Source of the DNA: Thysanoteuthis rhombus
Lineage: Eukaryota; Mollusca; Cephalopoda; Oegopsida; Thysanoteuthidae
Assembly: GCA_963457665.1 (NCBI GenBank)
Contig: OY735209.1
Coordinates: 2,473,081-2,537,080 of the forward strand
Length of the DNA: 64,000 nt
Direction: 5' to 3'
Shown: positions 6,695 through 63,220 of the stretch, piece by piece
How the letters are laid out: every line of letters begins with the position of its first letter
Numbering within the stretch: position 1 is the first letter of the stretch
Notes under the pieces: generated by a model
Database searches by the model: none
The model's input: only the letters and a program-made list of their open reading frames with translations
What the model was told of the DNA's origin: nothing
Position numbers and translations under genes: made by a program

Positions 6695-6700
6695 TTTATT
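6695..6700 (-). terminator. Conserved AATAAA, candidate poly(A) signal (U1)
   Basis: AATAAA on the minus strand in the context CCAATAAAGGG. It is preserved at the equivalent place in U2 (17120), U3 (28660) and U5 (53594), downstream of the zinc-finger stop codons. In U1 the array it would serve is gone. Confidence 0.4.
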
Positions 6701-24903: not shown

Positions 24904-24920
24904 TTCAAAATGCGAAACAC
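24904..24920. other. LINE target-site sequence (U2 version)
   Basis: TTCAAAATGCGAAACAC, two mismatches from the 17-bp word that flanks both young LINEs. The 3' end of an old LINE relative begins just to its right. The flanking genomic sequence on the left (about 24830-24903) matches that at 33700-33769. Confidence 0.7.
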
Positions 24921-25960
24921 TATTTGTAAGTTTGGTTTCATCTCGTCCTTGTTTTCTAAAAATTCAGAAAATCATTACACGTGGTTAGAAAAGTGAGGGG
25001 GATTTAGGCTGGTCTACTCTGTGCTATCATTAACTTATCTACTCTCATTTGCAGACCCAATCTTACTTCAAGATTCCTTTCGCCAAAACAACGCATTTTT
25101 CTGAATATTTCTTTCATTCTACATTTACCACAATAAAAGTGTTTTTCTAATAAAATCCTACTTAATCTCATTATTACAATTTCTTGGGGGGAGAGGAAGA
25201 AGAGAAATGATATTCATGCACATTTCAAAAATGAATCTCAATTAACGATATATGTCTACAAAAATTCTAGTACGTGATCTCCACAATTGTCTAACATGGA
25301 AGAACAGTAGGTTAACAGGGCGAAAAATGTGGGAAAAAAGATTTTCGAAATTTCTCACATCCTCCAGAGAACTTTACCTTCTGTCATCTAGAGAGAAGGA
25401 AGGGATGATACAAAACAAAAACAGGGGGGGGGATAAAAAAATGGTGGGACATCAGCTTGGGCTGGGCTTACAAGTCTTTTCTGATTTCCAAAATTCTTTC
25501 AATCAACCAATGACTTCAAGACGTCACTCTAGATCAACACCCCTCACATGACACAGCCGTGGAACTTTCACCCACATCTCTTTGTTGAGTCTTTCCCTCT
25601 AGACCTGAATCTTTACTTCAAGCGGATTCTTTATGTAGGCAACCAGTTGTACTGGAGTGAAATGCTCGCTTTTGTGGAATCCCTTTTGATATGTCGTCCA
25701 TACCATGACACTTATATTGCCAAGTAAGGACATGATCACATGAGGTTACCTCTTTTTCACTTAATTTCTTCCTTATATACACCTCCACGAGTTTTCAGAG
25801 CCATTACTGCAGATGTGACGTTAATGGGCCTATTTCATTTCGAGGCCAGGATTACCAGAGAGTCTCCAACTATCTGGTCCAAAACAGTCAAACTAAAAGA
25901 AATAATCCTCTAATCATGTAAATTGCAGCCGAAGGCATTGATTTAAACTGGTACTAATAA
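24921..25960 (-). pseudogene. Old 5'-truncated LINE fragment (3' UTR and ORF2 end), U2
   Basis: The minus strand is a diverged match to the young LINE 3' UTR (GGCTGGTCTACTC near 25010, CTTTACCTTCTGTCATCTAGAG near 25371) followed by the ORF2 C-terminal codons (about 25540-25740, opposite GGAGTGAAATGCTC). The match fades by about 25960. Only the 3' end of the element remains. U5 has the same fragment at 62175-63220, and the third copy is 46951-48020. Open frames on the plus strand here are antisense shadows. Confidence 0.8.
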
Positions 25961-29102: not shown

Positions 29103-30896
29103 TTACGGGTTCTCCTGAGTGTGTGTTTGCATGTGAGCCTCTAAATCTGAATCCATTGCAAATGCTGAACCACACACTTCACATGAATGTAATTGCTCTT
29201 TAGTATGTGTCTGCATATGTCTATTCAAAGTTGATTTTTGTCTGAACACCGAACTGCACACCTTGCATGAATATGTTTTTTCTCCAGTATGCCTCTCAAG
29301 GTGAATTTTTAAAGTCGAAATCCGTCTAAATGCAGAACTGCACACTTCACAGGAATATGGTTTCTCTCCAGTATGAATTTGTATATGTTGGTTCAAATGA
29401 GCTTTCCGTGAAAAAGAAGTGTCACACACTTCACAAGAATAAGGCTTCTCTCCAGTGTGTATTCTCATATGCACCCTCAAATTGCTCTTCCGAGAAAAGG
29501 AAGAATCACATACTTCACAAGAATAAGGCTTCTCCCCAGAATGCGTTTTCATATGCACAACCAAGTTTGACTTCCGATAAAAGGAAGAGCTACACACATT
29601 GCATGAATATGCTTTTTCTCCAGTGTGTGTCTGCACATGACTTTTTAAATCTGCTATCCGTGAAAATGTTGAATCACACTCTGCACATGAATATGGTCTT
29701 TTTCCAGTGTGTGTCTGCATGTGGATTTTCCAAGCCGATAACTGCTCAAATGCTGAACCACACACTGCACATGGATATTTCGTCTTTCTAGTGTGCATCT
29801 GCATGTGATTCTTGAAATTTGATGGACAAAAAAATGCTGAACCACAAACTTTACATGAATATGGTTTCCCTTTCGTGTGTTTCTGCATGTGTGCCTTTAA
29901 ATTTGACATATGCTTAAATGCTGAACCGCACACTTCACATTTATATGTTTCCTCTCCGGCGTGTATCTGCATGTGTCGTTTTAAATTTGATATATGTCTG
30001 AATACTGAACCACACACTTCACAGGAATATGGTTTCTCTCCAGTGTGTATCCGCATGTGTCGTTTTAAATTTGATATATGTCTGAATACTGAACTGCACA
30101 CTTCACAGGAATATGGTTTCTCTCCAGTGTGTATCCGCATGTGAATTTGCAAATCTGATATCCACTTAAATGCTGAACCACACACGTCACAAGAATATGA
30201 TCTTTTTCCAGTGTGTGTCTGCATGTGGGTTTTCCAAGCCGATAACTGCTCAAATGCTGAACCACACACTGCACATGGATATTTCGTCTTTCTAGTGTGC
30301 ATCTGCATGTGATTCTTGAAATTTGATGGGCGAACAAATGCTGAACCACAAACTTTACATGAATATGGTTTCCTTTTTGTGTGTTTCTGCATGTGTGCCT
30401 TTAAATTTGACATCTGCTTAAATGCTGAACCGCACACTTCAGATTGATATGGTTCCTCTCCGCTGTGTATCCGCATGTGTCGTTTTAAATTTGATATATG
30501 TCTGAATACTGAACCGCACACTTCACAGGAATATGGTTTCTCTCCAGTGTGTATCCGCATGTGAATTTGCAAATCTGATATCCGCTTAAATGCTGAACCA
30601 CACACTTCACAAGAATATGGTTTCTCTTCAGTGTGTGTTAGCATGTGTCTCTTCAATTTTAAGATATGTGCAAATGATGAACTACACACTGTGCACGAAT
30701 GTAGACTTTTTCCAGTGTGGGTTTGCATGTGAAATCTTAAAGCTGACACCTGTGCAAATACTGTACCACACACATCACATGAGTATGTTTTTCCTTCTTT
30801 GTGTGTCTGCATGTGAGTTTTTAAAGTTGTTATCTGTTTGAATGCTGAGCCACACACTTCACATGAATGAGATTCATCTCCAGTATTTTTATGCAT
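29103..30896 (-). CDS. C2H2 zinc-finger protein ZNF-B (21 fingers)
   Basis: The open frame of 597 residues from the first ATG (frame open eight codons further upstream) consists of 21 tandem fingers after a short lead. Twenty have all four ligands; finger 6 begins PYQSEVCG, with the first cysteine replaced by serine. Linkers are TGEKPY-like, with variants such as TRKTKY and TKRKPY. Fingers 4-8 recur as fingers 9-14 with one extra RHISNLKR finger, a five-finger block duplication. The protein is expected to be a nuclear DNA-binding regulator. No effector domain is visible. The flanks are full of decayed elements, yet 1.8 kb of array stays open, which suggests selection or homogenisation by gene conversion. 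The 5' part of the exon is frame-broken, so translation from this ATG is an inference. Confidence 0.8.
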
Positions 30897-31189
30897 TGTA
30901 GGTTCTTTATGTGATTTCAATTTGAATACTGCACAACACTTTACAGGAATAATTTTCTCTTAGGTAACCGTGCGTCTGTGTCCTAACAACTATCTATGTA
31001 AATCCTGGACCACAATAATCACAGCAATATGATCCTGCTGGAAGGAGTATTTGCATACAGGTTTCCGAATTTCTCAAAATTTCAAGCCCCTTTCTTGATT
31101 ACGTTTTTCCGAATTCAAGATTGAATTGAGAATCAGTTTTTCATACAAACAACCAGAGACGTGCTGATGTTTTCCATCGGTTGAAATCC
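30897..31189 (-). pseudogene. Broken 5' part of the ZNF-B exon
   Basis: In the array frame a TAA stands at about 30960, ahead of [18 protein letters not shown], which is a finger read in a shifted frame. In the finger frame the sequence reads GSYCCDYCGPGFT, stop, then RTQTH and [10 protein letters not shown], two dead fingers. The overall decay parallels ZNF-A and ZNF-C, but individual lesions differ. Confidence 0.65.
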
Positions 31190-31206: not shown

Positions 31207-33769
31207 TATTATGAAATATCATAAAACTCATCATCAGCAATAGGGAAGATATAACAATCCAGTTTGTGTTGCAATAAATTCCTGCATACCTTGATATATT
31301 TTGCAAATTTCATGTCCATACAATATATGCTAAAATATATTAAAAAATTAATATCATGATCCCCTGATAATTTGCATAGCGTAAAAATAATGAAGTCATT
31401 TTTTAATGTTATATAATTTTGAAGAGAACAGCAAAGAATACATAGAAATGATTTTGCTGGAACATTTTGTGGAGTATGAAAATGTGAAAATGTACAGAAT
31501 TGTATTTTATTTTTAAAAAAGTAATTTCTTACAATCGAACAATCAACAACAAAAGAGAACTGATCTCCAAAGAAAAAGTAGTATGACTAAAAGAAACTGC
31601 TTGTAACTAAACTCGTAAAAGTTGTTGCAGAAGAGAGAGAGACCAGTGTAGAAATGAAATATCTAAAATGGTTTGACTGATTTGAGGAGAAAAGCTACAT
31701 TCCTTTCTAGGAGAATCAATATGAAATGAATCTTTCAGAAAGTATCCATTCTCGTATTTTTCAGAGAAAATACCTTTTAGAAATTCTAAAAATTCAACAT
31801 CTGATAAATGTCAAGTGTTAGTGTAACGCTTAGCATCGATATTGTTACTAAAATTTAATGTTTAGTCATTAAAAATGTCGTATGAGTATTTTTATAAGCT
31901 GGGAACTGAAGGGAATTCTTTCAGCCAGTATTTTTGTGATTTTGATCTATTAGACAAGTTATTTCGGGACAAGAGTCCCTGCCCTGCTTGGGATCTATCT
32001 GATAATGCTTGGTTCAACTGAGGGGGAGGGGACAGCAACGCTCCCTCTCAGCCTGATAGGCAAATCAATGGGCAAGGGAACAAAATCATCCATCGTATAG
32101 GGAATTGAAAAACAATTATTTCAGACTGGAAATTTCCTAAATATTTAAATTCAAATAAATGCAATCCGTTAATGCAATTCAATAAGCCAAAATTTGTTCA
32201 ATAATACAAGTTTAAAGGAAAAAAATTAAATTGCAAAAAAATAAGGGTCCAACACAATATTAAAAAGGGGTCCTTCAGTTTTCAAAGTTCCGAAACCACA
32301 GCATCAGACCTTAATGATCTTCTTTGGATTTGTTGATTTTCAGGGGAAAAAATCTCAGGTTTTACGTGAAGGATTCCGTTTACAAGTGAATGTAGTTGTA
32401 AACTAACCCGTTTTCCAATCCGTCATCAAAGAGTTGACCATTAAAAGCATACATTCACTTTCTTGTAAAATTTCAATTATGCTTCCCAGGTTTTTGCGTT
32501 AAATGCCATATTCAGAGATACAAAAACAGACTTCAACATTGTTATGGAAGACTTCATGGTTCAGATAGCGCGAGGTAATAAAGATTGCATTAACAATTTT
32601 GATACACAATGCACAAACGGCAAACAAGGTCAAAATCATGAACACCTTTTGGAAGAAACACAAATAATTCTTACATGAGAATTCCCTATGTAATAATCAA
32701 AGCATAAAACTGTTTTCTAGGAGTAAAGCGTAATTTTTTCATAGGGGGGAGGGGGAGGAAAACTGCTTTTACCTTTCAGGCAATTTTTCATTACCACAAG
32801 ATGTTGGATGATCAAAGTTTAGGTTTAATATCTGCAATATTGTATTAAAATAAAATTTTCTCCAATGGCGATGATTCAGGATTAATTTGCAAAGAAAAAA
32901 AATGTAATTCTTTAACAAGTGATGTCCTGCCAATTAAAAATGAATAAAAAGATTGTTTCCGCTGAGAAATTCTTACTTTTGAAAAAAATTAATTAAGTAC
33001 AGTTATTTGAATGGGGTTCTATTCACAATTTAGCTACCCTTACTTTCTGTCATTTGTACGGCTTATGTGAATTATCTCTATATTTTCAAATATTCTCATT
33101 CCGTCATTTTAAGCATTGTTTTAAGAATATATTAGATCATATTCTTTGATTTCCGGAACATTGTCTGAAACTAATAAATTGTGCTTATTTGAAAAACGTC
33201 TGAAAGATTACAATTGATATTTCCTTTCACTAAGGTGTTCAAGTAAAATGGAGACATCACATAGCTGACAAATTTGTTTGTTTGTTTTTTATTTTAGGGA
33301 GGGGGTAAAATTTGAAAACGTCACTCAGATCAAAAAACTTCTTGAATATTAGTTCACTGACTGCTAATCTATTGACAAATGTCACTAAATGTAGGTCGAT
33401 AAACGTTCCAAATACGATACTTCTTTCGTCTGATTAATGCTCGTTGGGTAGCTTCCAAGACATCGGTGTTACCATATTTTCTTAGTGTATTTGCATCTAA
33501 TCAAATGACGGTGGCCTGACTTCAATAAGATCATTTTTATAGATTGACTATCGTGTTTGTTGTATGAGATGGAATTAGAATTGAAATGTAGTTCGACATT
33601 AGTTCGTCACAAAGTAAAGTGTTCACAATTTCGTCAAGCAAACGAGAAGAAAAAGATTTCACCTGTGTTTAATCGACGCAAGTAACTTGTCCAAAATTCC
33701 GTCGTGCAAACAAAGAAAAAGGTTGAATTCTCAGAGATGTGATTGTTTTCTGAGAGTAGTAGAACTACG
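31207..33769. other. Non-coding upstream region of ZNF-B
   Basis: A diverged match to U2 18.98-19.6 kb and 20.3-24.9 kb with large deletions. No gene was seen apart from the RTE remnant listed separately. Confidence 0.5.
32450..32670 (+). pseudogene. RTE-like endonuclease remnant (U3)
   Basis: It matches 20700-20920, including the TTCAACATTGTTATGGAAGA string (FNIVMED frame) and the GTCAAAATCATGAACA string. It ends within the endonuclease, and the following bases correspond to sequence downstream of the whole element in U2 (about 23266). The element was therefore present before the units separated and was mostly deleted here. Confidence 0.7.
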
Positions 33770-33786
33770 TTCAAGATGCAAAACAC
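33770..33786. other. 17-bp LINE target-site copy (3' side of LINE copy 1)
   Basis: TTCAAGATGCAAAACAC, identical to 40352-40368 and 46932-46948. To its left the sequence matches the U2 genomic flank at 24830-24903. Confidence 0.75.
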
Positions 33787-34481
33787 GATATTTATTCTCA
33801 AAAAATGAGAAATCTGACATGTAGTCGGAGGGGGGATGGGGTATAAGGGCTGGTCAACTCTATTCCTAATCCTTTCTTAGCTAGTCTCATGCACTGACCC
33901 AATCTCACTATATACATCCATTCACCAAAACAACCCATTTTTCCTGGTCTCTCATACTGCATTTACCATAACATCAGATTCTCTCTATGATGGAAAACTA
34001 CTCTAAACCCATATTTACAATTTTGTGTGTGGGGGGGGGGAATAAAATTATGATGAATATTTACAAATAAAAATGAACCCCAATGACTGATATGTATTTA
34101 CAAAAAAAAAAAAAAAAAAAAAAAAAAGCGAAAACGAAATTAGTATGTGACCCCCCCACAAAAGACTTAACATGGCAGAACAGTAAGTTAACCAGACGAA
34201 AAGATGGATGTCGAGACAGAGGGAAAGGAAGAAAGAAAAAAAAAAAAAAAAAAATCCTCTCAAACATCCTCTGGAAAACTTTTACCTTCTGTCATCTAGA
34301 GGGGGAGGGGATGGGAATCGAAAAAAGTGAAGGACAGAAAAAAAAAGGGGGGCCGATGATCATTCTCTCCCTAGCTAAGAAACTGTTGGCTAACAGAAAA
34401 GGAAAATCTAATCTATCCTAACCTGGGCTGGGTTAGCACGTTCGTGTCAGGACTGCAAAATCCTTACTGACCAATAGACTT

Positions 34482-37400
34482 TCAAAAAAACCACTCTAAT
34501 TCAGCACCTTTCACTCGACACAGTCGGGCAACTCTCACCCACCTTCCGTTGAATTCCGACCAAGGGAGCCTCTCCCTCTCGACCCTGATTTTGACTTTGA
34601 GCTGGTGCCCAAAGAACGCAATCAGTTGTTCGGGAGTGAAATGCTCTCCTTCGTGGAACCCCTTCTGACGCGTCGTCCAAATCACCATTCGCATCACGCC
34701 AAGTAAGCACATTAGCACTATATGTGCGTCCTTCTCCAACGATGGGAACACATTGCTGCAGACAGCACTGGCATCCAAGGCAAAAAACCGTGCCCCGACG
34801 ATGCGAACCATGTGGCCTTCAACCAGCTTGCACAGCGGATGCACCACGCTGCAGTGGAAGAAGGCGTGCTCAATAGACTCCTCCATTCCACCACAGCGCA
34901 TGCACTCTGGTGAAACTACCAGACCCGCTGCAAAAAGCCGTTTGCCGACCCAGAGAGCATTCCGTATGACTAGCCAGGTGAGGGACGCCTCGTTGTTATT
35001 GAGGCACCTCAGTCCGGGCGTCCAAGGCCAGATTGAGCGACTCTCCGCCTTCGTTAAACCGAGCCCCTCGATCATTTCGTCTCGAACGGACCCCCTCACT
35101 ATTACCCGATATAATGCCCTCCTCGACAACGACTGGGTGTCGTTGAGGCATTCCTTCACCCGAGAAAAAACTCGGAGAGCGTGTCGGCATTCTCGATAGA
35201 AAGAGCATTCCGCCCGGGGTCTACGGCGGGCCTCACCCCCGTCGTCGGAACGCACGTTTCTTAAGGCTGGGAAAGCCTTCCTGGCGTCTTCTTTCCAGAA
35301 TTCGCCGTTCTGCTCTTCTTGCGTACACATCCGACCTAAGAAAGTCAAGCGTAGGGTATGTTGCCGAGCTTCGATGTTCGGCATTCCTAGGCCGCCTTCC
35401 GCAGGTTGGAGCTGACAGATCTTGCGAGATACCATGGGGTGCCTGTGACCCCATAGGAGTCGAAACATGGCACCTTCCAACTTTAGTTGGTCGGTACACG
35501 GAAGAGGGAGCACTGAAAGTCGGTAAAGGATAAGGGGGTAGATGTGAGAGACGCACACCTCGGCCCTACCCTTGAAGGAGAGCTTCCTCCGAGTCCACAG
35601 ATTAACTGCTTTCTCTACCTTTTCCAGTACGCCCGACCAATTTTTCTCCAACTGGAGGTCGGGACCGAACCAGACGCCGAGTATCTTGCACGGCCCTTCC
35701 GTCCAGGCAAAGGGACCAGGGAGAGAGCGCCCTCTCCACGAGTCCAGCAACAAGCCCTCAGACTTGTCGCAGTTGGCTTTGGCCCCTGTCACCGTCTCAT
35801 ACCTTTGGATCTCTACACTGATTTCCCTGATCTCGGCACTGCTCGTTACAAGCAAGGTTATGTCATCAACGTAGGCGGTATACTTGACTGGCGTGTGACC
35901 ACCAGGCAAGGTTAGCCCGCGTAGGACCGGATTCGCCTTTACTTTGCGCAGGAAAGGTTCCAGCGCAAGAATGTACAGCATCGGCGAAAGTGGACAACCT
36001 TGACGAACTGATCTGGACAACTGAAAGGCTTTCGACCTCACTCCATTCACCTCCACCACCGAGCTGGGGGATGCATACAAGAGACGAATCCAGGAGCGAA
36101 AGATCACACTGAAGCCAGATGCGGACAAGACGGACTCGAGAAAACGATGGTCGACCCTATCGAATGCTTTGGACTGATCTAACTTGATCAGCGCGGCTCC
36201 ATTGTCGACTTTCTCAATGATCGTGCGCACCGTGTGCAGATTATCTTGGATAGTCCGACCCTTTACAGAGCAAGTCTGCTCGGGGCCAATCAGACTCTCC
36301 AGCACAGTCTGCAGCCGGTTTGCGAGGACCTTGGCCAAAATCTTCAACTCTGTATTGAGCAGAGTTATGGGCCTGAAGTTATCTACCCCGTCCCCTCCAT
36401 CTTTGTCCTTGCATAGCAATTTCACCACCCCTCTGGTAAAGCGGCTGGGAATGCCCCCCTGCTTTAGCCAGTGGTTAAAGATCAATGCCAGCAAGTGAAC
36501 GAAAATGGGCGACAGCCTCAAATACACTTCGTAAGGCAAACCATCGATCCCCGGTGTCTTCTCCTTCTCGATGCTCTTTAACGCTTCCCGGATTTCATCC
36601 TCTGATATGGGCCCCTCGCACCCAGCTGCTTCAGTCGCCTCAAGGCGAGGGAAGTCAGCTAAATAGGCGTCGAACTGAGCCGAATTCAGTCTAGCTTCCC
36701 TGGTGAATAGTTCCTGGAAGTTGGCACGAAACACCTCACAGATACCTTCGTTTGTGGTCACAAGGCGTCCGTCCGGCGATGTGACGCTGGAGATATGCCG
36801 ACTAGACGCACTCCTAATTTCTTCTAGCCTCAGCTCATCGGCCATATTCGTTGCCTCGGGGGACATTCTCTTTAATCTAGCTCTAACTACTAGAGCTTGA
36901 TCCTTCTTGGCATGCAAGGAGGCCAACTCTGCCTTAGCTATCTTAACCTGGCTAGAGTCCCCTCCCTCCACCGCCCGCTCGATCCGATCTTCTAGTGCCT
37001 TTTGTGCCGCTAGTCTCACTAGGTTGAGTCGCCTACTGTAATCGGCAGCAAAAGACCTAATTTTGTTTTTGAGGTTCCCCCAGAATTTATTTCCCAGGAT
37101 AGCCCCCGTCAGTTCCCGCTAGATTAGTGATGTTAGCTGGTCCCGAAAATCCTCCATATCCACGAGGGATGTGTTGAATTTCCAGTAACCAGACTTGAAG
37201 GGCTTAGCTATACCTAAATTCATTCGGGCCCTTACTAATCTATGGTCCGAAAAGGGGACGCTATGGAAACTTGGACATTCCAAAAACTTATGGTCGACTC
37301 TTCTAGCTAAGACCCGATCGATGTAACTGGAATGTTGCACCGAACTCGGATCGCCACTATTAGTCCAAGTCCATACTACTTGGCGGGGGTGTTCGTTTCG

Positions 37401-37931
37401 GAATTTATCCACCAGGTCAAGCCTGTTGATCAAATCCCGAAACGGAATCACGTCGCTGTGGTTAGTTCCCCTATTTACCCCTCGGTCTATATCGGGATCA
37501 AGGACGGCATTCCAATCACCCGCTAACACTAGCCGTCTCGACGGAACTACGAACTGATCGATCCGCCGAAAGAAGTTGATTCGCTCACCCTGGCCGTTGG
37601 GCGCATAAACCCCAATCAAACGAAAAGCCTCCCCTCTTATGGTAACATCAACGACGCACAATCTGCCCGCCGGGTCTGCATACACAAGGGAACACATCGC
37701 ATTCAAAGAATGGCTTATTAGCCAAGAGACACCTCTGGAGTGGCTATCAAAGTATGCTGAAAAGAGACGAAAGTCTCGAGACAGCACACTCTCATTGTCG
37801 CTCGAAATAAAGTGTGTCTCCTGTATACAACAAACACTCACGTCGAGGTGCCGGAGGAGACGACAGAGTCTAGCTCTTTTCGACTCGTTCCGGTAACCAC
37901 GACCATTCAAACTTGCTAAATAGAGAGCCAT
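34482..37931 (-). pseudogene. LINE ORF2 (endonuclease-reverse transcriptase), copy 1, one nonsense codon
   Basis: The frame is 1149 codons, identical in layout to copy 2, but codon 271 is TAG (37119-37121) where copy 2 has CAG. The endonuclease (residues 1-270) would be made alone; the rest (878 codons) is open and in frame. Motifs are the same as in copy 2: QETH at 37-40, GDWN at 138-141, SDH at 228-230, FDRVD at 590-594, YVDD at 687-690, and C-terminal CCHC at 1010-1027. Other differences from copy 2 are a handful of substitutions (for example S43 instead of P43, H158S159 instead of N158G159). The inactivation is recent, and a sequencing error cannot be excluded. Confidence 0.85.
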
Positions 37932-37940
37932 CTTGTTAAT

Positions 37941-40157
37941 CTATTGGCGTTGCCCTCCTGACGCGAACATTGCCGGTGATAGCACACCGACAGCGGGTCC
38001 CATAGGATCTGTGCCCATCTCAGTCTTGATGGAGCACTCCAGGGACACGCCGCCGACGTGCCTGGGGAACGTTAATTTAACTGCCCTATAAAGGGAGGGG
38101 TGCATGAAAACAGGGACCCTCCCTGAGCAAAAGTTTTTCAGTTTGTGGAGGTCTGGATGATGCCAGACAGCCAGCGGTGATGACATTTTGAAAGCTGAGT
38201 TGGCCTCTTTTAACATGTCCCACACCTGCCGTGAGGTGTCACCGACCCGGACCACAGTTAATAGTTTCTTCAGCCCTGGGAACAAGGTAGGGTCCTCCAC
38301 ATCACGTCTTCCGGGTTCGACGAACCGGAAATTGTGGAGGACCTTTAAATCCCTCAGGGCCTGCTGCTGGAGCTTGGTTTTTTCGAGAATGTCCGGGTCG
38401 ACACGGCAGATGTGGACCCCTCTCTTGTGTCTGATTTTTTTCTCTTTTTTGGTGGGCTCGCCGGTATCACCCCCGGCTGGGCTTCTCGGCCTCTTTTGTG
38501 AGGCCGATTGTGTAGGTGACATGGGTGTGCTTGTTGTTGTTGTTGCTGATGTTGGTGTTGTTGCTGGTGTTGTTGCTGGTGATACTGATGGTGTTACTTT
38601 TGGGGAAGGTTTTGGTGTGGCTGCTGGTGTTGTTGTTGTAGTGGGAGGAATCATAATCAACGGTGGAGGCGGCGGCGGAGGTAGCGGTGATGTGGGCGGT
38701 AATGGTGGTGTAGGGGATGGTATTTGTTTTTCAGGAGTTTTCAGGGGGGTAGATTTTTTTTTCAATACAGTTAGTTTTGATTTTTCGGGAGGTGAAGCTT
38801 TTGTTTGAGGACTTTGCAATGTTTTCGGGGAGGGCGGAGGGGTAACCCTCCCTGCTGGCTGCCTGGACTTTAGTTGTTGTAGTAGTGCCGCCGCCTTTTC
38901 CTTCCCTATTCGTCCCGGACTAGCGTAACCCCCCACTCTAGCCCGTTCCGCATAAGACTGCGGGGTCTCTCCTTGGGGACTGTCGGTGTCGGTTCGCATT
39001 GGGATATGTGGCAACAGGGGTACCTCTATTTGGGCCTTCTTCCCACTACGACCTACTACCTGCCACTCCCCCTCCGTCTTCTCTTTATGTGTCACCACCT
39101 TTGGTGACGGAGTCGACGGTTTAGGTGAGGGGAGACTTTTACCTCTCCCGGCATCTGACTGGATTCCTCCAGTCATGGCAGTAGGCGAGACTACGGGAGC
39201 CTCCTTTTGGGCGGTATCAGAAACTAAGTGGGAAGGGTCTTGCGTCAGGCTGGACGGTTTTTTTTTGCAGATAGCGGCGAGGTGACCAGCCTCCCCGCAT
39301 ATCCAGCAGACTGGCCTCCTACCTTTGACGATAAGAGGTAGTCGCCTCCGACCACCTATGTCCAAATAGTTGGGAATGGCCAGGAACGCCTTCCTGTCGA
39401 TCATAAGATCAAAACGCCACTCCCCACGCATCACCTCGGAGTCAACCGAGACAATTTCTCCGTATTTCAGGAGAAAAGCCCCGATATGTTCCCCGAGCAC
39501 GAAGCTGGGCACCTCATGTGCTATTACCCGGGTCCTTCTCCGGCCGAGATACTCAACACGAATGTAATGCTCCTTTGTTTGGAGCTCTCGGCGCAGGAGA
39601 TCTGAACAGTCCTGTTCAGTGGGCAATAACACGTCCCACATCGCAAAGCCATCGCCTTTTACAACTTGTTTGGCTTTGATTCCTAAGCTAGCCAGTGCTT
39701 TCAACACTATGTCTTTGTTTGATCGGACAATTCGGTTTGACTTCTTGTCGACCAAAAAGACGGACACCATTTTTTTCTCAATGTCTTTCAATTCGACCAA
39801 GTCCACCAGTAAGCCGTCCTCTTTCACAAGGTGACTGTATGTCTGGCAACGCTTGACGAATTCCGCCACATTGACTGTATTTATTACGGGAGGGGATGAC
39901 CAAACGTTAGGAGAGTCCCCACTTGTCTTGTCATGTTGTCCCGCCGGAATCGGCGAGTCTGTATTTTCCCCCTTCCCTTCATGGACGGGGGATTTTTTCA
40001 TGTCTGTGTTCTTTTCAGGTGGACTGTTTGTCTGCATTTTTTTCATTTTGTCCTGTTTTTTTTTGTTTTTTTTCCCTATTTTAGGGGGTGTGGATGTGCC
40101 CCCGCCCTCCCCCTTATCGGGGGAAGCAAACAAGGCCCTCCTGGCCTCGTCGGCCAT
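37941..40157 (-). CDS. LINE ORF1 nucleic-acid-binding protein, copy 1
   Basis: The 738-residue protein starts MADEARRALF. Regions: a lysine-rich N-terminus (to about residue 60), a folded region (about 93-280) of the kind that precedes zinc knuckles in Tx1-group ORF1 proteins, a CCHC knuckle (C284, C287, H292, C297), a long Pro/Thr/Ser-rich low-complexity part (about 300-570), and a conserved C-terminal region starting near GVHICRVD. ORF1 proteins of this type coat the LINE RNA and act as chaperones in the retrotransposition particle; that role is inferred from the family. The stop is TAG, and ORF2 starts 9 bases later in the same frame. The decayed copies at 560-2040 and 9570-10945 keep the C-terminal region best. 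Confidence 0.85.
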   Translation of the reverse strand: MADEARRALFASPDKGEGGGTSTPPKIGKKNKKKQDKMKKMQTNSPPEKNTDMKKSPVHEGKGENTDSPIPAGQHDKTSGDSPNVWSSPPVINTVNVAEFVKRCQTYSHLVKEDGLLVDLVELKDIEKKMVSVFLVDKKSNRIVRSNKDIVLKALASLGIKAKQVVKGDGFAMWDVLLPTEQDCSDLLRRELQTKEHYIRVEYLGRRRTRVIAHEVPSFVLGEHIGAFLLKYGEIVSVDSEVMRGEWRFDLMIDRKAFLAIPNYLDIGGRRRLPLIVKGRRPVCWICGEAGHLAAICKKKPSSLTQDPSHLVSDTAQKEAPVVSPTAMTGGIQSDAGRGKSLPSPKPSTPSPKVVTHKEKTEGEWQVVGRSGKKAQIEVPLLPHIPMRTDTDSPQGETPQSYAERARVGGYASPGRIGKEKAAALLQQLKSRQPAGRVTPPPSPKTLQSPQTKASPPEKSKLTVLKKKSTPLKTPEKQIPSPTPPLPPTSPLPPPPPPPLIMIPPTTTTTPAATPKPSPKVTPSVSPATTPATTPTSATTTTSTPMSPTQSASQKRPRSPAGGDTGEPTKKEKKIRHKRGVHICRVDPDILEKTKLQQQALRDLKVLHNFRFVEPGRRDVEDPTLFPGLKKLLTVVRVGDTSRQVWDMLKEANSAFKMSSPLAVWHHPDLHKLKNFCSGRVPVFMHPSLYRAVKLTFPRHVGGVSLECSIKTEMGTDPMGPAVGVLSPAMFASGGQRQ

Positions 40158-40351
40158 GAAGGGAAACGAAAAAATACAAAAATCGAGACAACAACAAAAA
40201 ATGGGACTTATCTTGTAGGACTAGAGTTTCGGGGGGGTTCGACTAGTCCGGAATCCGTTCAAAATGTACTGAACAGTAGCAGCAACCTCGTCTGAAAATA
40301 AACAATAAAAGTTCGTAAGAGCAACAAAAAAACACGTCAAATCTTGTTTCC

Positions 40352-40368
40352 TTCAAGATGCAAAACAC
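40352..40368. other. 17-bp LINE target-site copy between the two LINEs
   Basis: TTCAAGATGCAAAACAC, then TA and the copy 2 3' end (GATATTTATT...). On the right-hand side it abuts the copy 2 3' UTR, and on the left the copy 1 5' UTR. Confidence 0.75.
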
Positions 40369-41055
40369 TAGATATTTATTCTCAAAAGATGAGAAATCTG
40401 ACATGTAGTCGGAGGGGGGATGGGGTATAAGGGCTGGTCAACTCTATTCCTAATCTTTTCTTAGCTAGTCTCATGCACTGACCCAATCTCACTATATACA
40501 TCCATTCACCAAAACAACACATTTTTCCTGGTCTCTCATACTGCATTTACCATAACATCAGATTCTCTCTATGATGGAAAACTACTCTAAACCCATATTT
40601 ACAATTTTGTGTGTGTGGGGGGGGGGCAATAAAATTATGATGAATATTTACAAATAAAAATGAACCCCAATGATTGATATATATTTACAAAAAAAAAAAA
40701 AAAAAAAGCGAAAACGAAATTAGTATGTGACCCCCCCACAAAAGACTTAACATGGCAGAACAGTAAGTTAACCAGACGAAAAGATGGATGTCGAGACAGA
40801 GGAGAAAAAAAAAAAAAAAAAAAAAAAAAAATTCTCTCAAACATCCTCTGGAAAACTTTACCTTCTGTCATCTAGAGGGGGAGGGGATGGGAATCGAAAA
40901 AAGTGGAGGACAGAAAAAAAAGGGGGCCGATGATCATTCTCTCCCTAGCTAAGAAACTGTTGGCTAACAGAAAAGGAAAATCTAATCTATCCTAACCTGG
41001 GCTGGGTTAGCACGTTCGTGTCAGGACTGCAAAATCCTTACTGACCAATAGACTT

Positions 41056-44000
41056 TCAAAAAAACCACTCTAATTCAGCACCTTTCACTCGACACAGTCG
41101 GGCAACTCTCACCCACCTTCCGTTGAATTCCGACCAAGGGAGCCTCTCCCTCTCGACCCTGATTTTGACTTTGAGCTGGTGCCCAAAGAACGCAATCAGT
41201 TGTTCGGGAGTGAAATGCTCTCCTTCGTGGAACCCCTTCTGACGCGTCGTCCAAATCACCATTCGCATCACGCCAAGTAAGCACATTAGCACTATATGTG
41301 CGTCCTTCTCCAACGATGGGAACACATTGCTGCAGACAGCACTGGCATCCAAGGCAAAAAACCGTGCCCCGACGATGCGAACCATGTGGCCTTCAACCAG
41401 CTTGCACAGCGGATGCACCACGCTGCAGTGGAAGAAGGCGTGCTCAATAGACTCCTCCATTCCACCACAGCGCATGCACTCTGGTGAAACTACCAGACCC
41501 GCTGCAAAAAGCCGTTTGCCGACCCAGAGAGCATTCCGTATGACTAGCCAGGTGAGGGACGCCTCGTTGTTATTGAGGCACCTCAGTCCGGGCGTCCAAG
41601 GCCAGATTGAGCGACTCTCCGCCCTCGTTAAACCGAGCCCCTCGATCATTTCGTCTCGAACGGACCCCCTCACTATTACCCGATATAATGCCCTCCTCGA
41701 CAACGACTGGGTGTCGTTGAGGCATTCCTTCACCCGAGAAAAAACTCGGAGAGCGTGTCGGCATTCTCGATAGAAAGAGCATTCCGCCCGGGGTCTACGG
41801 CGGGCCTCACCCCCGTCGTCGGAACGCACGTTTCTTAAGGCTGGGAAAGCCTTCCTGGCGTCTTCTTTCCAGAATTCGCCGTTCTGCTCTTCTTGCGTAC
41901 ACATCCGACCTAAGAAAGTCAAGCGTAGGGTATGTTGCCGAGCTTCGATGTTCGGCATTCCTAGGCCGCCTTCCGCAGGTTGGAGCTGACAGATCTTGCG
42001 AGATACCATGGGGTGCCTGTGACCCCATAGGAGTCGAAACATGGCACCTTCCAACTTTAGTTGGTCGGTACACGGAAGAGGGAGCACTGAAAGTCGGTAA
42101 AGGATAAGGGGGTAGATGTGAGAGACGCACACCTCGGCCCTACCCTTGAAGGAGAGCTTCCTCCGAGTCCACAGATTAACTGCTTTCTCTACCTTTTCCA
42201 GTACGCCCGACCAATTTTTCTCCAACTGGAGGTCGGGACCGAACCAGACGCCGAGTATCTTGCACGGCCCTTCCGTCCAGGCAAAGGGACCAGGGAGAGA
42301 GCGCCCTCTCCACGAGTCCAGCAACAAGCCCTCAGACTTGTCGCAGTTGGCTTTGGCCCCTGTCACCGTCTCATACCTTTGGATCTCTACGCTGATTTCC
42401 CTGATCTCGGCACTGCTCGTTACAAGCAAGGTTATGTCATCAACGTAGGCGGTATACTTGACTGGCGTGTGACCACCAGGCAAGGTTAGCCCGCGTAGGA
42501 CCGGATTCGCCTTTACTTTGCGCAGGAAAGGTTCCAGCGCAAGAATGTACAGCATCGGCGAAAGTGGACAACCTTGACGAACTGATCTGGACAACTGAAA
42601 GGCTTTCGACCTCACTCCATTCACCTCCACCACCGAGCTGGGGGATGCATACAAGAGACGAATCCAGGAGCGAAAGATCACACTGAAGCCAGACGCGGAC
42701 AGGACGGACTCGAGAAAACGATGGTCGACCCTATCGAATGCTTTGGACTGATCTAACTTGATCAGCGCGGCTCCATTGTCGACTTTCTCAATGATCGTGC
42801 GCACCGTGTGCAGATTATCTTGGATAGTCCGACCCTTTACAGAGCAAGTCTGCTCGGGGCCAATCAGACTCTCCAGCACAGTCTGCAGCCGGTTTGCGAG
42901 GACCTTGGCCAAAATCTTCAACTCTGTATTGAGCAGAGTTATGGGCCTGAAGTTATCTACCCCGTCCCCTCCATCTTTGTCCTTGCATAGCAATTTCACC
43001 ACCCCTCTGGTAAAGCGGCTGGGAATGCCCCCCTGCTTTAGCCAGTGGTTAAAGATCAATGCCAGCAAGTGAACGAAAATGGGCGACAGCCTCAAATACA
43101 CTTCGTAAGGCAAACCATCGATCCCCGGTGTCTTCTCCTTCTCGATGCTCTTTAACGCTTCCCGGATTTCATCCTCTGATATGGGCCCCTCGCACCCAGC
43201 TGCTTCAGTCGCCTCAAGGCGAGGGAAGTCAGCTAAATAGGCGTCGAACTGAGCCGAATTCAGTCTAGCTTCCCTGGTGAATAGTTCCTGGAAGTTGGCA
43301 CGAAACACCTCACAGATACCTTCGTTTGTGGTCACAAGACGTCCGTCCGGCGATGTGACGCTGGAGATATGCCGACTAGACGCACTCCTAATTTCTTCTA
43401 GCCTCAGCTCATCGGCCATATTCGTTGCCTCGGGGGACATTCTCTTTAATCTAGCTCTAACTACTAGAGCTTGATCCTTCTTGGCATGCAAGGAGGCCAA
43501 CTCTGCCTTAGCTATCTTAACCTGGCTAGAGTCCCCTCCCTCCACCGCCCGCTCGATCCGATCTTCTAGTGCCTTTTGTGCCGCTAGTCTCACTAGGTTG
43601 AGTCGCCTACTGTAATCGGCAGCAAAAGACCTAATTTTGTTTTTGAGGTTCCCCCAGAATTTATTTCCCAGGATAGCCCCCGTCAGTTCCCGCTGGATTA
43701 GTGATGTTAGCTGGTCCCGAAAATCCTCCATATCCACGAGGGATGTGTTGAATTTCCAGTAACCAGACTTGAAGGGCTTAGCTATACCTAAATTCATTCG
43801 GGCCCTTACTAATCTATGGTCCGAAAAGGGGACGCTATGGAAACTTGGACATTCCAAAAACTTATGGTCGACTCTTCTAGCTAAGACCCGATCGATGTAA
43901 CTGGAATGTTGCACCGAACTCGGATCGCCACTATTAGTCCAAGTCCATACTACTTGGCGGGGGTGTTCGTTTCGGAATTTATCCACCAGGTCAAGCCTGT

Positions 44001-44505
44001 TGATCAAATCCCGAAACGGAATCACGTCACCGTTGTTAGTTCCCCTATTTACCCCTCGGTCTATATCGGGATCAAGGACGGCATTCCAATCACCTGCTAA
44101 CACTAGCCGTCTCGACGGAACTACGAACTGATCGATCTGCCGAAAGAAGTTGATTCGCTCACCCTGGCCGTTGGGCGCATAAACCCCAATCAAACGAAAA
44201 GCCTCCCCTCTTATGGTAACATCAACGACGCACAATCTGCCCGCCGGGTCTGCATACACAAGGGAACACATCGCATTCAAAGAATGGCTTATTAGCCAAG
44301 AGACACCTCTGGAGTGGCTATCAAAGTATGCTGAAAAGAGACGAAAGTCTCGAGACAGCACACTCTCATTGTCGCTCGGAATAAAGTGTGTCTCCTGTAT
44401 ACAACAAACACTCACGTCGAGGTGCCGGAGGAGACGACAGAGTCTAGCTCTTTTCGACTCGTTCCGGTAACCACGACCATTCAAACTTGCTAAATAGAGA
44501 GCCAT
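41056..44505 (-). CDS. LINE ORF2: APE endonuclease, reverse transcriptase, C-terminal zinc knuckle (intact)
   Basis: The intact protein has 1149 residues. The APE-type endonuclease (about 1-235) shows N9, QETH with E38, Y109, GDWN (D139, N141), YID with D205, and SDH (D229, H230). The reverse transcriptase (about 440-800) shows TPGIDG at 459-464, NFRPITLLN, LDQSKAFD with catalytic D585, RQGCPLSP at 643-650, and YVDD at 687-690 carrying the catalytic aspartates. A C-terminal CCHC (C1010, C1013, H1022, C1027) is typical of L1/Tx1 elements. The enzyme would nick the target and prime reverse transcription from it. Translation probably depends on ORF1, whose TAG lies in the same frame just upstream. 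Confidence 0.92.
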   Translation of the reverse strand: MALYLASLNGRGYRNESKRARLCRLLRHLDVSVCCIQETHFIPSDNESVLSRDFRLFSAYFDSHSRGVSWLISHSLNAMCSLVYADPAGRLCVVDVTIRGEAFRLIGVYAPNGQGERINFFRQIDQFVVPSRRLVLAGDWNAVLDPDIDRGVNRGTNNGDVIPFRDLINRLDLVDKFRNEHPRQVVWTWTNSGDPSSVQHSSYIDRVLARRVDHKFLECPSFHSVPFSDHRLVRARMNLGIAKPFKSGYWKFNTSLVDMEDFRDQLTSLIQRELTGAILGNKFWGNLKNKIRSFAADYSRRLNLVRLAAQKALEDRIERAVEGGDSSQVKIAKAELASLHAKKDQALVVRARLKRMSPEATNMADELRLEEIRSASSRHISSVTSPDGRLVTTNEGICEVFRANFQELFTREARLNSAQFDAYLADFPRLEATEAAGCEGPISEDEIREALKSIEKEKTPGIDGLPYEVYLRLSPIFVHLLALIFNHWLKQGGIPSRFTRGVVKLLCKDKDGGDGVDNFRPITLLNTELKILAKVLANRLQTVLESLIGPEQTCSVKGRTIQDNLHTVRTIIEKVDNGAALIKLDQSKAFDRVDHRFLESVLSASGFSVIFRSWIRLLYASPSSVVEVNGVRSKAFQLSRSVRQGCPLSPMLYILALEPFLRKVKANPVLRGLTLPGGHTPVKYTAYVDDITLLVTSSAEIREISVEIQRYETVTGAKANCDKSEGLLLDSWRGRSLPGPFAWTEGPCKILGVWFGPDLQLEKNWSGVLEKVEKAVNLWTRRKLSFKGRAEVCVSHIYPLILYRLSVLPLPCTDQLKLEGAMFRLLWGHRHPMVSRKICQLQPAEGGLGMPNIEARQHTLRLTFLGRMCTQEEQNGEFWKEDARKAFPALRNVRSDDGGEARRRPRAECSFYRECRHALRVFSRVKECLNDTQSLSRRALYRVIVRGSVRDEMIEGLGLTRAESRSIWPWTPGLRCLNNNEASLTWLVIRNALWVGKRLFAAGLVVSPECMRCGGMEESIEHAFFHCSVVHPLCKLVEGHMVRIVGARFFALDASAVCSNVFPSLEKDAHIVLMCLLGVMRMVIWTTRQKGFHEGEHFTPEQLIAFFGHQLKVKIRVERERLPWSEFNGRWVRVARLCRVKGAELEWFF

Positions 44506-44514
44506 CTTGTTAAT

Positions 44515-46737
44515 CTATTGGCGTTGCCCTCCTGACGCGAACATTGCCGGTGATAGCACACCGACAGCGGGTCCCATAGGATCTGTGCCCATCTCAGTCT
44601 TGATGGAGCACTCCAGGGACACGCCGCCGACGTGCCTGGGGAACGTTAATTTAACTGCCCTATAAAGGGAGGGGTGCATGAAAACAGGGACCCTCCCTGA
44701 GCAAAAGTTTTTCAGTTTGTGGAGGTCTGGATGATGCCAGACAGCCAGCGGTGATGACATTTTGAATGCTGAATTTGCTTCTTTTATCATGTCCCACACC
44801 TGCCGTGAGGTGTCACCGACCCGGACCACAGTCAATAGTTTCTTCAGCCCTGGGAACAAGGTAGGGTCCTCCACATCACGTCTTCCGGGTTCGACGAACC
44901 GGAAATTGTGGAGGACCTTTAAATCCCTCAGGGCCTGCTGCTGTAATTTTGTTTTGTCCAGAATGTCCGGGTCGACACGGCAGATGTGGACCCCTCTCTT
45001 GTGCCTGATTTTTTTTTCTTTTTTTGTCGTTGGTTCGCCGGTATCGCCCCCGGCTGGGCTTCTCGGCCTCTTTTGTGAGGCCGATTGTGTGGGTGACATG
45101 GGTGTTGTTGTTGTTGCTGCTGTTGTTGCTGGTGATGTTGGAGTTAGTTTGGAGGTTGGTGTGGCTGCTGGTGTTGTTTTAGGGGAAGGTTTTGGTGTGG
45201 CTGCTGGTGTTGTTTTTGTAGTGGGAGGAATCATAATCAACGGTGGAGGCGGCGGCGGAGGTAGCGGTGATGTGGGCGGTAATGGTGGTGTAGGGGATGG
45301 TATTTGTTTTTCAGGAGTTTTCAGGGGGATAGATTTTTTTTTCAATACAGTTAATTTTGATTTTTCGGGAGGTGAAGTTTTTGTTGGAGGACTTTGCAAT
45401 GTTTTCGGGGAGGGCGGAGGGGTAACCCTCCCTGCTGGCTGCCTGGACTTTAGTTGTTGTAGTAGTGCCGCCGCCTTTTCTTTCCCTACTCGTCCCGGAC
45501 TAGCATAACCCCCCACTCTAGCCCGTTCCGCATAAGACTGCGGGGTCTCTCCTTGGGGACTGTCGGTGTCGGTTCGCTTTGGGATATGTGGCAACAGGGG
45601 TGCTTCTATTTGGGCCTTCTTCCCACTACGACCTACTACCTGCCACTCCCCCTCCGTCTTCTCTTTTTGTGCCACCACCTTTGGTGACGGAGTCGACGGT
45701 TTAGGTGAGGGGAGACTTTTACCTCTCCCGGCATCTGACTGGATTCCTCCAGTCATGGCAGTAGGCGAGACTACGGGAGCCTCCTTTTGGGCGGTCACAG
45801 AAACTGAGTGGGAAGGGTCTTGCGTCAGGCTGGACGGTTTCTTTTTGCAGATAGCGGCGAGGTGACCGGCCTCCCCGCATATCCAGCAGACTGGCCTCCT
45901 ACCTTTTACGATAAGAGGCAGTCGCCTCCGACCACCTATGTCCAAATAGTTGGGAATGGCCAGGAACGCCTTCCTGTCGATCATAAGATCAAAACGCCAC
46001 TCCCCACGCATCGCCTCGGAGTCAACCGAGACAATTTCTCCGTATTTCAGGAGAAAAGCCCCGATATGTTCCCCGAGTACGAAGCTGGGCACCTCATGTG
46101 CTATTACCCGGGTCCTTCTCCGGCCGAGATACTCAACACGAATGTAATGCTCCTTCGTTTGGAGCTCTCGGCGCAGGAGATCTGAACAGTCCTGTTCAGT
46201 GGGCAATAGTACGTCCCACATCGCAAAGCCATCGCCTTTTACGACTTGTTTGGCTTTGATTCCTAAGCTAGCCAGTGCTTTCAACACTATGTCTTTGTTT
46301 GATCGGACAATTCGGTTTGACTTCTTGTCGACCAAAAAGACGGACACCATTTTTTTCTCAATGTCTTTCAATTCGACCAAGTCCACCAGTAAGCCGTCCT
46401 CTTTTACAAGGTGACTGTATGTCTGGCAACGCTTGACGAATTCCGCCACATTGACTGTATTTATTACGGGAGGGGATGACCAAACGTTAGGAGAGTCCCC
46501 ACTTGTCTTGTCATGTTGTCCCGCCGGAATCGGCGAGTCTGTATTTTCCCCCTTCCCTTCATGGACGGGGGATTTTTTCATGTCTGTGTTCTTTTCAGGT
46601 GGACTGTTTGTCTGCATTTTTTTCATTTTGTCCTGTTTTTTTTTGTTTTTTTTCCCTATTTTAGGGGGTGTGGATGTGCCCCCGCCCTCCCCCTTATCGG
46701 GGGAAGCAAACAAGGCCCTCCTGGCCTCGTCGGCCAT
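44515..46737 (-). CDS. LINE ORF1 nucleic-acid-binding protein, copy 2
   Basis: The 740-residue protein has the same architecture as copy 1 (CCHC at 284-297). It differs by many more substitutions than ORF2 does, and by a rearranged Pro/Thr-rich stretch around residues 510-560 where repeat-like codons are gained and lost. The knuckle and the C-terminal domain are nearly unchanged. It ends in TAG nine bases before the ORF2 ATG. Confidence 0.87.
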   Translation of the reverse strand: MADEARRALFASPDKGEGGGTSTPPKIGKKNKKKQDKMKKMQTNSPPEKNTDMKKSPVHEGKGENTDSPIPAGQHDKTSGDSPNVWSSPPVINTVNVAEFVKRCQTYSHLVKEDGLLVDLVELKDIEKKMVSVFLVDKKSNRIVRSNKDIVLKALASLGIKAKQVVKGDGFAMWDVLLPTEQDCSDLLRRELQTKEHYIRVEYLGRRRTRVIAHEVPSFVLGEHIGAFLLKYGEIVSVDSEAMRGEWRFDLMIDRKAFLAIPNYLDIGGRRRLPLIVKGRRPVCWICGEAGHLAAICKKKPSSLTQDPSHSVSVTAQKEAPVVSPTAMTGGIQSDAGRGKSLPSPKPSTPSPKVVAQKEKTEGEWQVVGRSGKKAQIEAPLLPHIPKRTDTDSPQGETPQSYAERARVGGYASPGRVGKEKAAALLQQLKSRQPAGRVTPPPSPKTLQSPPTKTSPPEKSKLTVLKKKSIPLKTPEKQIPSPTPPLPPTSPLPPPPPPPLIMIPPTTKTTPAATPKPSPKTTPAATPTSKLTPTSPATTAATTTTPMSPTQSASQKRPRSPAGGDTGEPTTKKEKKIRHKRGVHICRVDPDILDKTKLQQQALRDLKVLHNFRFVEPGRRDVEDPTLFPGLKKLLTVVRVGDTSRQVWDMIKEANSAFKMSSPLAVWHHPDLHKLKNFCSGRVPVFMHPSLYRAVKLTFPRHVGGVSLECSIKTEMGTDPMGPAVGVLSPAMFASGGQRQ

Positions 46738-46931
46738 GAAGGGAAACGAAAAAATACAAAAATCGAGACAACAACAAAAAATGGGACTTATCTTGTAGGA
46801 CTAGAGTTTCGGGGGGGTTCGACTAGTCCGGAATCCGTTCAAAATGTACTGAACAGTAGCAGCAACCTCGTCTGAAAATAAACAATAAAAGTTCGTAAGA
46901 GCAACAAAAAAACACGTCAAATCTTGTTTCC

Positions 46932-46948
46932 TTCAAGATGCAAAACAC
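46932..46948. other. 17-bp LINE target-site copy (5' side of LINE copy 2)
   Basis: TTCAAGATGCAAAACAC followed by TA and a T-run, then the 3' end of an old LINE relative. It is the rightmost of three identical copies. Confidence 0.75.
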
Positions 46949-46950
46949 TA

Positions 46951-48020
46951 TTTTTTTTTTCTCATTTTTCTTTTTTTAAAATACAGTAAATTATGACACG
47001 TGGTCAAATAAATGAGGGGGGATTCGGGCTGGTCTACTCTGTGCTAACATTACCCTAGTTATTCTCATTTGCTGACCCAACCTTACTTCAATACTCCTTT
47101 GACTGAAACGCATTTTTCTGAATATTTCTCCCATTCTACATTGACTACAATACCAGAGTTTCTCTCCAAAAATCCTACTTAATCCCATACTTAGAGTTCC
47201 TTGGGGATAGAAGAGGAAGAGAAATTATATTACTGTCAATTAAAAAAACAAATCAAAGAAAGTTACATATTTACAAAAAATTTCCGTAGATGACCTCCCA
47301 CAATTGTCAAATATGGAAGAACAGTAAGTTGACAGGGCGAAAAATAGATGTGGGGAATATTGTCGCAATTTCTCACATCCTCCAGAGAACTTTACCTTCT
47401 GTCATCTATAGGGAAGGAAGGGGTGATGCAAAATAAAAAAGGGGGACTAAAAAAAACTTAAGGAACGTATGCTCATTTTCTCTCTGACTAAATTGAACTG
47501 TTTCCAACCCAAGATAGCGCTATTCTACCTCAGCTTGGACTGGGCTTATAAGTCTTTTCTGATCTCCAAAATTCTTTCAATCAACCAATGACTTCAAGAA
47601 GTCACTCTAGATTAACACCTCTCATGTGACACAGCCCTGGAACTTTCACCCACATCTCGTTGTTGAGCCTTCCCCTCTAGACCTGAATCTTTACTTCAAG
47701 CGGATTCTTTATGTAGGCGACCAGTTGTACTGGAGTGGAATGCTCACTTTTGTGGAATCTCTTTTGATATGTCGTCCATACCATGACACTTAGAATGCCA
47801 AGTAAGGACATGATCACATGATGTTACCTCCTTTTCACTTAATTTCTTCCTTATATACATCTCCATGGGTTTTCAGAGCCATTACGGCAGATGTGACGTT
47901 AATGGGCCTATTTTATTTTGAGGCCAGGATTACCAGAGAGTCTCCAACTATCTAGTCCAAAATAGTCAAAATAAAAGAAATAATCCTCTAATCATGTAAA
48001 TTGCAGCCGAAGGTGTTGAT
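46951..48020 (-). pseudogene. Old 5'-truncated LINE fragment next to the young pair
   Basis: A diverged 3' UTR (about 46980-47580), then the ORF2 C-terminal codons (about 47600-47820), fading by 48020. It is a paralogue of 24921-25960 and 62175-63220. Its 3' end abuts the 17-bp target word, and the two young copies lie between it and the genomic flank at 33700-33769. Confidence 0.8.
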
Positions 48021-62157: not shown

Positions 62158-62174
62158 TTCAAAATGCGAAACAC
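62158..62174. other. LINE target-site sequence (U5 version)
   Basis: TTCAAAATGCGAAACAC, the same variant as in U2, abutting an old LINE 3' end. Confidence 0.7.
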
Positions 62175-63220
62175 TATTTGTAAGTTTAGTTTCATCATGT
62201 ACTTGTTTTCTAAAAATTCAGAAAATCATTACACGTGGTTAGAAAAGTGAGGGTGATTTAGGCTGGTCTACTCTGTGCTATCATTAACTTATCTACTCTC
62301 ATTCGCAGACCCAATCTTACTTCAAGATTCCTTTCGCCAAAACAACGCATTTTTCTGAATATTTCTTTCATTCTACATTTACCACGATCCAAGTGTTTTT
62401 TTAATAAAATCCTACTTAATCTCATATATACAATTTCTTGGGGGCAGAGGAAGAAGAGAAATGATATTCATGCACATTTCAAAAATGAATCTCAATTAAC
62501 GATGTATGTCTACAAAAATTCTAGTACGTGATCTCCACAATTGTCTAACATGGAAGAACAGTAAGTTAAAAGGGCAAAAAATGTGGGAAAAAAGATTTTC
62601 GAAATTTCTCACATCCTCCAGAGAACTTTACCTTCTGTCATCTAGAGAGAAGGTAGGAATGAACAAAAAAAAAGGGGAAAGGAATAAAAAAAATGGAGGG
62701 ACCTCAGCTTGGGCTGGGCTTACAAGTCTTTTCTGATCTCCAAAATTCTTTCAATCAACCAATGACTTCAAGAAGTCACTCTAGATCAACACCTCTCACG
62801 TGACACAGCCATGGAACTTTCACCCACATCTCATTGTTGAGCCTTTCCCTCTAGACCTGAATCTTTACTTCAAGCGGATTCTTTATGTAGGCGACCAGTT
62901 GTACTGGAGTGAAATGCTCGCTTTTGTGGAATCCCTTTTGATATGTCGTCCATACCATGACACTCATAATGCCAAGAAAGGACATGATCACATGAGGTTA
63001 CCTCCTTTTCACTTAATTTCTTCCTTATATACATCTCCACGGGTTTTCAGAGCCATTACGACAGATGTGACGTTAATGGGCCTATTTTATTTTGAGGTCA
63101 GGATTACCAGAGAGTCTCCAACTATCTGGTCCAAAACAGTCAAACTAAAAGAAATAATCCTCTTATTATGTAAATTGCAGCTGAAGGCATTGATTTAAAC
63201 TGGTACTAATAAAAATGTTC
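62175..63220 (-). pseudogene. Old 5'-truncated LINE fragment (U5)
   Basis: Counterpart of 24921-25960: a diverged LINE 3' UTR, then the ORF2 C-terminal codons (about 62780-63000). The long plus-strand open frame at 62800-63198 is antisense to it and not a gene. Confidence 0.8.

Follow-up and report, generated by a model that had tools for sequence, protein, structure and literature searches.

The head-to-tail LINE pair in our window, by which we mean the whole 64-kb stretch of DNA analysed here, is a real tandem at a site that has been used more than once, and it exemplifies a habit seen genome-wide. Comparison of copies at different hosts makes it on balance probable that this family inserts in sense orientation at, or a few bases after, the RNA polymerase II (Pol II) start of certain multicopy genes, with the host promoter driving its transcription ahead of renewed insertion there. 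Pol II start sites are throughout placed from sequence. The hosts found, each with a word unrelated to the others, are a linker histone H1, an H4-like histone, a 0.87-kb repeat unit (gene 4) and a zinc-finger cluster.

The 17-bp word TTCAAGATGCAAAACAC occurs exactly at 33770..33786, 40352..40368 and 46932..46948 of the window and with two mismatches at 24904 and 62158; these five matches compare with 0.48 expected, and none of 100 shuffles reached five. As the initial annotation had described, the three exact words frame two young LINE copies; both are full length and on the same (minus) strand. Copy A (33787..40351), the best match of our tail search, contains an ORF1 of 738 aa (37941..40157, minus strand) and an ORF2 (34482..37931, minus strand) interrupted after residue 270. 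Copy B (40371..46931) has both frames open, namely an ORF1 of 740 aa (44515..46737, minus strand) and an ORF2 of 1149 aa (41056..44505, minus strand) with APE-type endonuclease, reverse transcriptase and zf-RVT domains in Pfam. The first word is host sequence on the 3' side of copy A, and the host flank extends past it, below 33770; the second lies between the two copies and is followed by TA, and the third is on the 5' side of copy B.

An old, decayed relative of the LINE (46949..47817, minus strand, 5' limit approximate) lies beyond the third word. It matches the 3' part of the young element at 66% over 47375-47817, and its 3' end meets the word at a boundary placed by extending this match. 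In two paralogous units (24904..25739 and 62158..62991, both minus strand) the near-word is followed by the old relative without any young copy, the junctions again coming from match extension. For all three old pieces, identity to the 3' part of the element is 66-69%; the arrangement initially described for them is borne out. Three C2H2 zinc-finger ORFs with 84-bp repeats are present on the minus strand (17943-18683, 29103-30920 and 54506-55912), and every one of them has a word upstream of it on that strand. The ORF at 29103..30920, downstream of the LINE copies, is the presumed host gene, and the predicted first exon of this unit (33665..33786, minus strand) has a donor-like end, CAG/GTGAAA, recognised by eye, and a front conserved in paralogs. 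Long inverted repeats of 650-707 bp, 96% complementary, flank the zinc-finger units (17108-17814/21724-22430, 53525-54174/59042-59691 and 6626-7268). Rfam gave no match on the whole window.

Judged from its predicted domains, the element is an APE-type LINE of L1/Tx1-like kind, with the name Tx1 serving as a lead only. Exo_endo_phos and RVT_1 are above the Pfam cut-off in ORF2, and the zinc knuckle of ORF1 (zf-CCHC) scores 20.0 bits against a cut-off of 20.8. The element ends with AATAAATA and a few further bases, and the sequence that follows differs among loci; therefore the word belongs to the site. That the word is the element's own 3' end was ruled out, since other copies have other sequence downstream. 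Copies A and B are 98.3% identical, and the 91 substitutions and 7 gaps that separate them make an assembly duplication unlikely. The substitutions are unevenly spread (55 of the 91 in element positions 1000-1999, 6 in 3000-5499), with ORF1 holding most of the divergence and ORF2 hardly differing. Such a mosaic points to recombination or template switching.

We searched the window's own assembly (2.73 Gb, 514 contigs) for further occurrences. The pattern TTCAARATGCRAAACAC was matched 62 times and its reversed control twice; of the 62 matches, 58 fall on contig 12 at 2.03-4.32 Mb, the stretch containing the window. The exact word recurs at steps of about 6.6 kb in a four-copy array with five words (C12:4256263-4282619), and bounds a single copy at two other sites on contig 12 (2460574/2467158 and 4308943/4315535). 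Two paralogs (L152, L153) have the word directly after the old fragment, without a young copy. At C12:2395998-2397258, and in a near-copy at C12:2767309-2768568, two LINE tails meet 3'-to-3', 2 bases apart. A search with the tail of copy A gave at least 42 matches (40 of 895 candidates scored), and the 3' flanks of 38 of the 42 were read, some of the loci being mutual duplicates and hence not all independent. Within about 60 bases, 21 of the 38 flanks enter the 5' end of a same-orientation copy (a short, internally deleted one in a single case). Another 13 enter the front of a multicopy host unit: zinc-finger in seven (L009, L010, L014, L018, L023, L038, L043), H1 in two (L028, L030), H4-like in one (L019) and gene 4 in three (L034, L042, L045). 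The remaining four lead elsewhere (L016, L024, L031, L032), L016 lying within another LINE's ORF2.

The initial annotation had taken the 17-bp word for the target of the family and had named beforehand, as the test, a shared target beyond the 3' ends of the copies. Across the 38 of 42 flanks read the words are unrelated, other full-length copies have unrelated flanks, and no one conserved target for all copies was found. A sequence-specific LINE of Tx1 or R1 type aimed at the word would account for its flanking every copy in the window and at three other contig-12 sites, and for the old relative at the same point, but full-length copies of the same family stand at unrelated words with nearly the same endonuclease, and we consider this reading highly improbable. 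The endonuclease domain of copy B was compared with twelve others, taken from copies at a range of sites, and identity was 91.3-99.6% (a thirteenth stretch fell outside the domain); the closest, one residue away, belongs to a copy at a different point of the zinc-finger exon. The endonuclease alone, as far as these predicted domains indicate, does not set the insertion word.

The tandem copies indicate repeated insertion at one point, with 21 of the 38 flanks running from copy to copy and with mixed tail types on contig 14. There, the opening 16 bases of the H4-like gene stand after each of the two neighbouring copies, whose last 300 bases are only 92.2% identical, making them different tail types; the tail of the inner copy is 98.3% identical to those of copies on contigs 29 and 34, in a comparison that omits contig 33. 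The neighbours on contig 9 fall into different clades of a quick tree (SH-aLRT 91 and 93), though the inner word is not repeated in the outer 3' flank there. Next to the contig-12 copy at 2460k lies a short copy with a different tail type. Such mixed subfamilies inside arrays point to repeated insertion. The earlier claim of at least two insertions at the same site thus holds as regards reuse, seen in the old relative beside the young copies and in the mixed-subfamily arrays, but was drawn too narrowly in taking the 17-bp word as the target. It is unlikely that each site received a single insertion which then grew in tandem by unequal exchange, with conversion spreading it through the cluster. 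Contig-12 word-site copies that are 98.5-100% identical in the ORF2 part, LINE 5' ends that cluster by array and H1 copies identical over 2.2 kb are what this account would lead one to expect, whereas the neighbours of different tail type on contigs 14 and 9, the short copy beside the 2460k copy and the divergence of A and B by 5.5% over 1 kb of ORF1 speak against it. The similarity of the ORF2 parts on contig 12 and the grouping of 5' ends by array make it probable that unequal exchange or gene conversion is at work within the arrays in addition to repeated insertion.

A search with the 5' end revealed arrays of three and five copies on contig 38 (C38:22595254-22739941) at steps of 6.55-6.59 kb, whose first member lies within the 3' tail of another LINE, antisense to it. 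No upstream end was found for the contig-14 array (L066, L092), and no 3' end for the contig-22 copy (L072). The 5'-truncated neighbours at L016 and L018/L073 were discarded as proof of re-insertion, being better read as nested in another copy's ORF2.

Empty and filled members of the histone families allow the insertion point to be located. Two arrays on contig 34 end 64 bases before the start codon of an H1 gene (Pfam Linker_histone). The H1 search gave 18 matches representing 15 genes. Eleven of these are empty and have a TATA box 75-113 bases upstream of the ATG; in the other 4 the leader contains a LINE 3' end, oriented in sense. The insertion site is unbroken in the empty genes L099 and L105, where the H1 word ACAACCACCACACGG occurs once; each contig-34 array has it three times. 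The word begins 40 bases after TATAAAA, about 8 bases beyond the usual start distance. The other filled H1 genes (L095, L098) are hit at or near the same point by other tail types, 93.9% and 81.6% identical to the first. Three of the four H1 array copies share the 2.2-kb identity and the fourth nearly does; on this ground the two arrays were dropped as independent hits, and they may represent one event spread by conversion.

The 101-aa product of the H4-like gene matched H4 chains in all 60 solved structures listed (best E 0.0006) and scored 80 against canonical H4, compared with 49 for the best of 1000 shuffles; an 88-residue version had no Pfam match at a threshold of 0.001. It is a divergent H4-like histone with an N-terminal tail without most basic residues. 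The search gave 41 matches, and of the 16 loci read, 2 contain the LINE and 14 do not. The empties keep the TATA box in all 14 cases and the word ACAAG... in 7, the word being altered in the other 7. In L115 the TATA box lies 32 bases before the base that is joined to the LINE in filled genes. L019 is a further LINE-filled gene beyond the 16 read; an Rfam histone 3' stem-loop downstream of it is the sole Rfam match in 17 loci. The H4-like loci (L111-L126; contig 14 at 65.4-66.0 Mb, contig 30 at 0.1 Mb, contigs 3, 10, 13, 38, 11 and others) often form divergent pairs about 4.9 kb apart and are often near contig ends. H3 genes, for which about 90 H3-length hits are present among 150 scored, seem spared; they show at most one pattern match, a candidate LINE.

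Gene 4 is a unit of about 0.87 kb, both tandem and dispersed, with 760 first-look candidates, of which 40 were scored; tandem copies on contig 36 (C36:13722552-13728140) are mostly 871 bases apart. It has a TATA-like box and a donor-like GGTAAATTTC, and had no Rfam match in the loci tested. Eight upstream stretches were read, seven empty and one with the LINE (L129). In L130 the insertion point is 30 bases after TATAGG, the box of gene 4 by our own assignment. A gene 4 locus on contig 10 has a shorter spacer and a different word, GCCGG, and the insertion still lies 30 bases after TATAGG; this spacer variant is the best single hint for position over sequence. A repeat on contig 33 carries the word GTCCAGG 33 bases after CATAAAA, and its 5' flank is found also on contigs 22 and 46. 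For the zinc-finger unit, a search with its front gave 40 matches (108 candidates), and 20 upstream stretches were read, 12 of them picked for a late match start. All 20 contain a LINE 3' end in sense orientation, 10 of them old and 10 young; these ends lie at several points spread over about 50 bases, and no LINE-free unit occurs among the 20.

Seen from the host side, a LINE 3' end is present in 27 of the 59 fronts read (H1 4/15, H4-like 2/16, gene 4 1/8, zinc-finger 20/20), and all 27 are in sense orientation. A TATA-like box precedes the insertion point by 30-40 bases in four host families, the distance being 32 for the H4-like gene, 30 for gene 4 and for its contig-10 variant, 33 for the contig-33 repeat and 40 for H1. 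At random points of the window, TATAAA is present 28-42 bases upstream in 0.8% and a looser box in 1.8%. A clear TATA box at 28-42 bases is absent at the contig-38 arrays, L024, contig 9 and the zinc-finger site; the first contig-38 site, in the antisense LINE tail, has TATAAGG 14 bases away (counted by eye), and L024, a 5'-truncated copy, has TATAAT 19 bases upstream. The recurring feature of the insertions would thus be strand and position, not the word. Broad insertion with survival mainly in multicopy genes, single-copy hits being harmful, fits with the host families found being multicopy. It predicts both strands and scattered positions, however, where 27 of 27 were sense at the front (fronts alone were read), and we judge it very unlikely.

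The bases at the 5' end of the LINE suggest how re-insertion could proceed. On contig 13 the word on the 5' side disagrees with that on the 3' side at 4 of 23 positions, and the 5' word carries ATCGCTCGAC, which recurs at six other LINE junctions (L035, L036, L046-L049). On contigs 10 and 42 the opening 36 or so bases of the LINE are similar to the gene 4 exon, scoring 41-60 where shuffles reach 24 at most, but are not identical to the host copy at the 3' side. Unequal 5' and 3' words in young copies argue against plain target duplication, which should give equal words, and host variants could explain part of the differences. At these three loci, we infer, the 5' word looks as if it derived from an RNA initiated on a related copy of the host.

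We therefore propose the following only as a working scheme. The LINE 3' end is first joined to the first transcribed bases of a gene; empty and filled paralogs show this step at the histone and repeat-unit sites, with the start taken from the TATA box, and it is extended by inference to the zinc-finger site. The upstream host promoter would then transcribe the LINE into an RNA beginning with the host's first 15-36 bases, i.e. the word. Indirect evidence suggests that this RNA would be reverse transcribed into the start site of the same gene family, the host leader helping to close the 5' junction. Every round would generate word-LINE-word-LINE-word, for any word, and the window pair would be two separate, recent insertions of one family at the front of the zinc-finger unit. 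More tentatively, and with rather less confidence than an even call, we suggest that the LINE recognises the Pol II start itself (the initiation complex or melted DNA), with the host leader guiding re-insertion, so that arrays could grow anywhere it has entered. If instead the leader alone guided re-insertion by homology, without start-site recognition, the LINE would spread only among relatives of its host gene. LINEs whose leaders resemble the gene 4 exon do re-enter gene 4 at the matching base, but entry into several unrelated families at similar distances from TATA is left unexplained, and this reading is quite unlikely. Recognition of start sites, if true, would be another mode of site choice, reading Pol II starts; it would explain continued LINE expression from borrowed promoters, and it would place insertions where histone and zinc-finger genes can be silenced or rewired. 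The arrays offer a repeated natural test of LINE 5' junction closure.

Human L1, which is dispersed and has its own promoter, would differ from the window family in both respects, although its ORF2p is the nearest solved structure to the ORF2 product (E 6e-78). SLACS/CRE elements insert in sense orientation a few bases after the start of the spliced-leader gene and rely on host transcription; they are alike in this placement but have a restriction-like endonuclease and one target gene, as against several gene families here. To our knowledge, the site-specific LINEs described so far recognise a sequence, with a Pol III promoter taking its place in a single case, and choosing a position over one fixed sequence would be unusual for such an element. 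In the mainly open-access literature searched, we found no account of a LINE directed to Pol II start sites or to histone genes. Targeting by TRE5-A of Dictyostelium is linked to Pol III factors. TRE5-A targets positions near genes and not a sequence (PMC5391098); there the genes are tRNA genes with RNA polymerase III, whereas the window family would use Pol II genes, in sense, at the start. Utopia sits in U2 snRNA genes with U2 sequence mostly at the 3' flank, and Utopia-1_NVit shows occasional tandem insertion (PMC4640811); a gene-borne target and occasional tandem insertion are thus shared, while the restriction-like endonuclease and single target gene of Utopia are not. Keno in U2 snRNA genes, named in the same paper, is an example of the target-specific LINEs of the Tx1 and R1 clades. 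LINEs of these clades resemble the window family in their APE-type endonuclease, in insertion into multicopy genes and in the reuse of one point, but they recognise one conserved sequence, whereas the window family is found at unrelated words with nearly the same enzyme.
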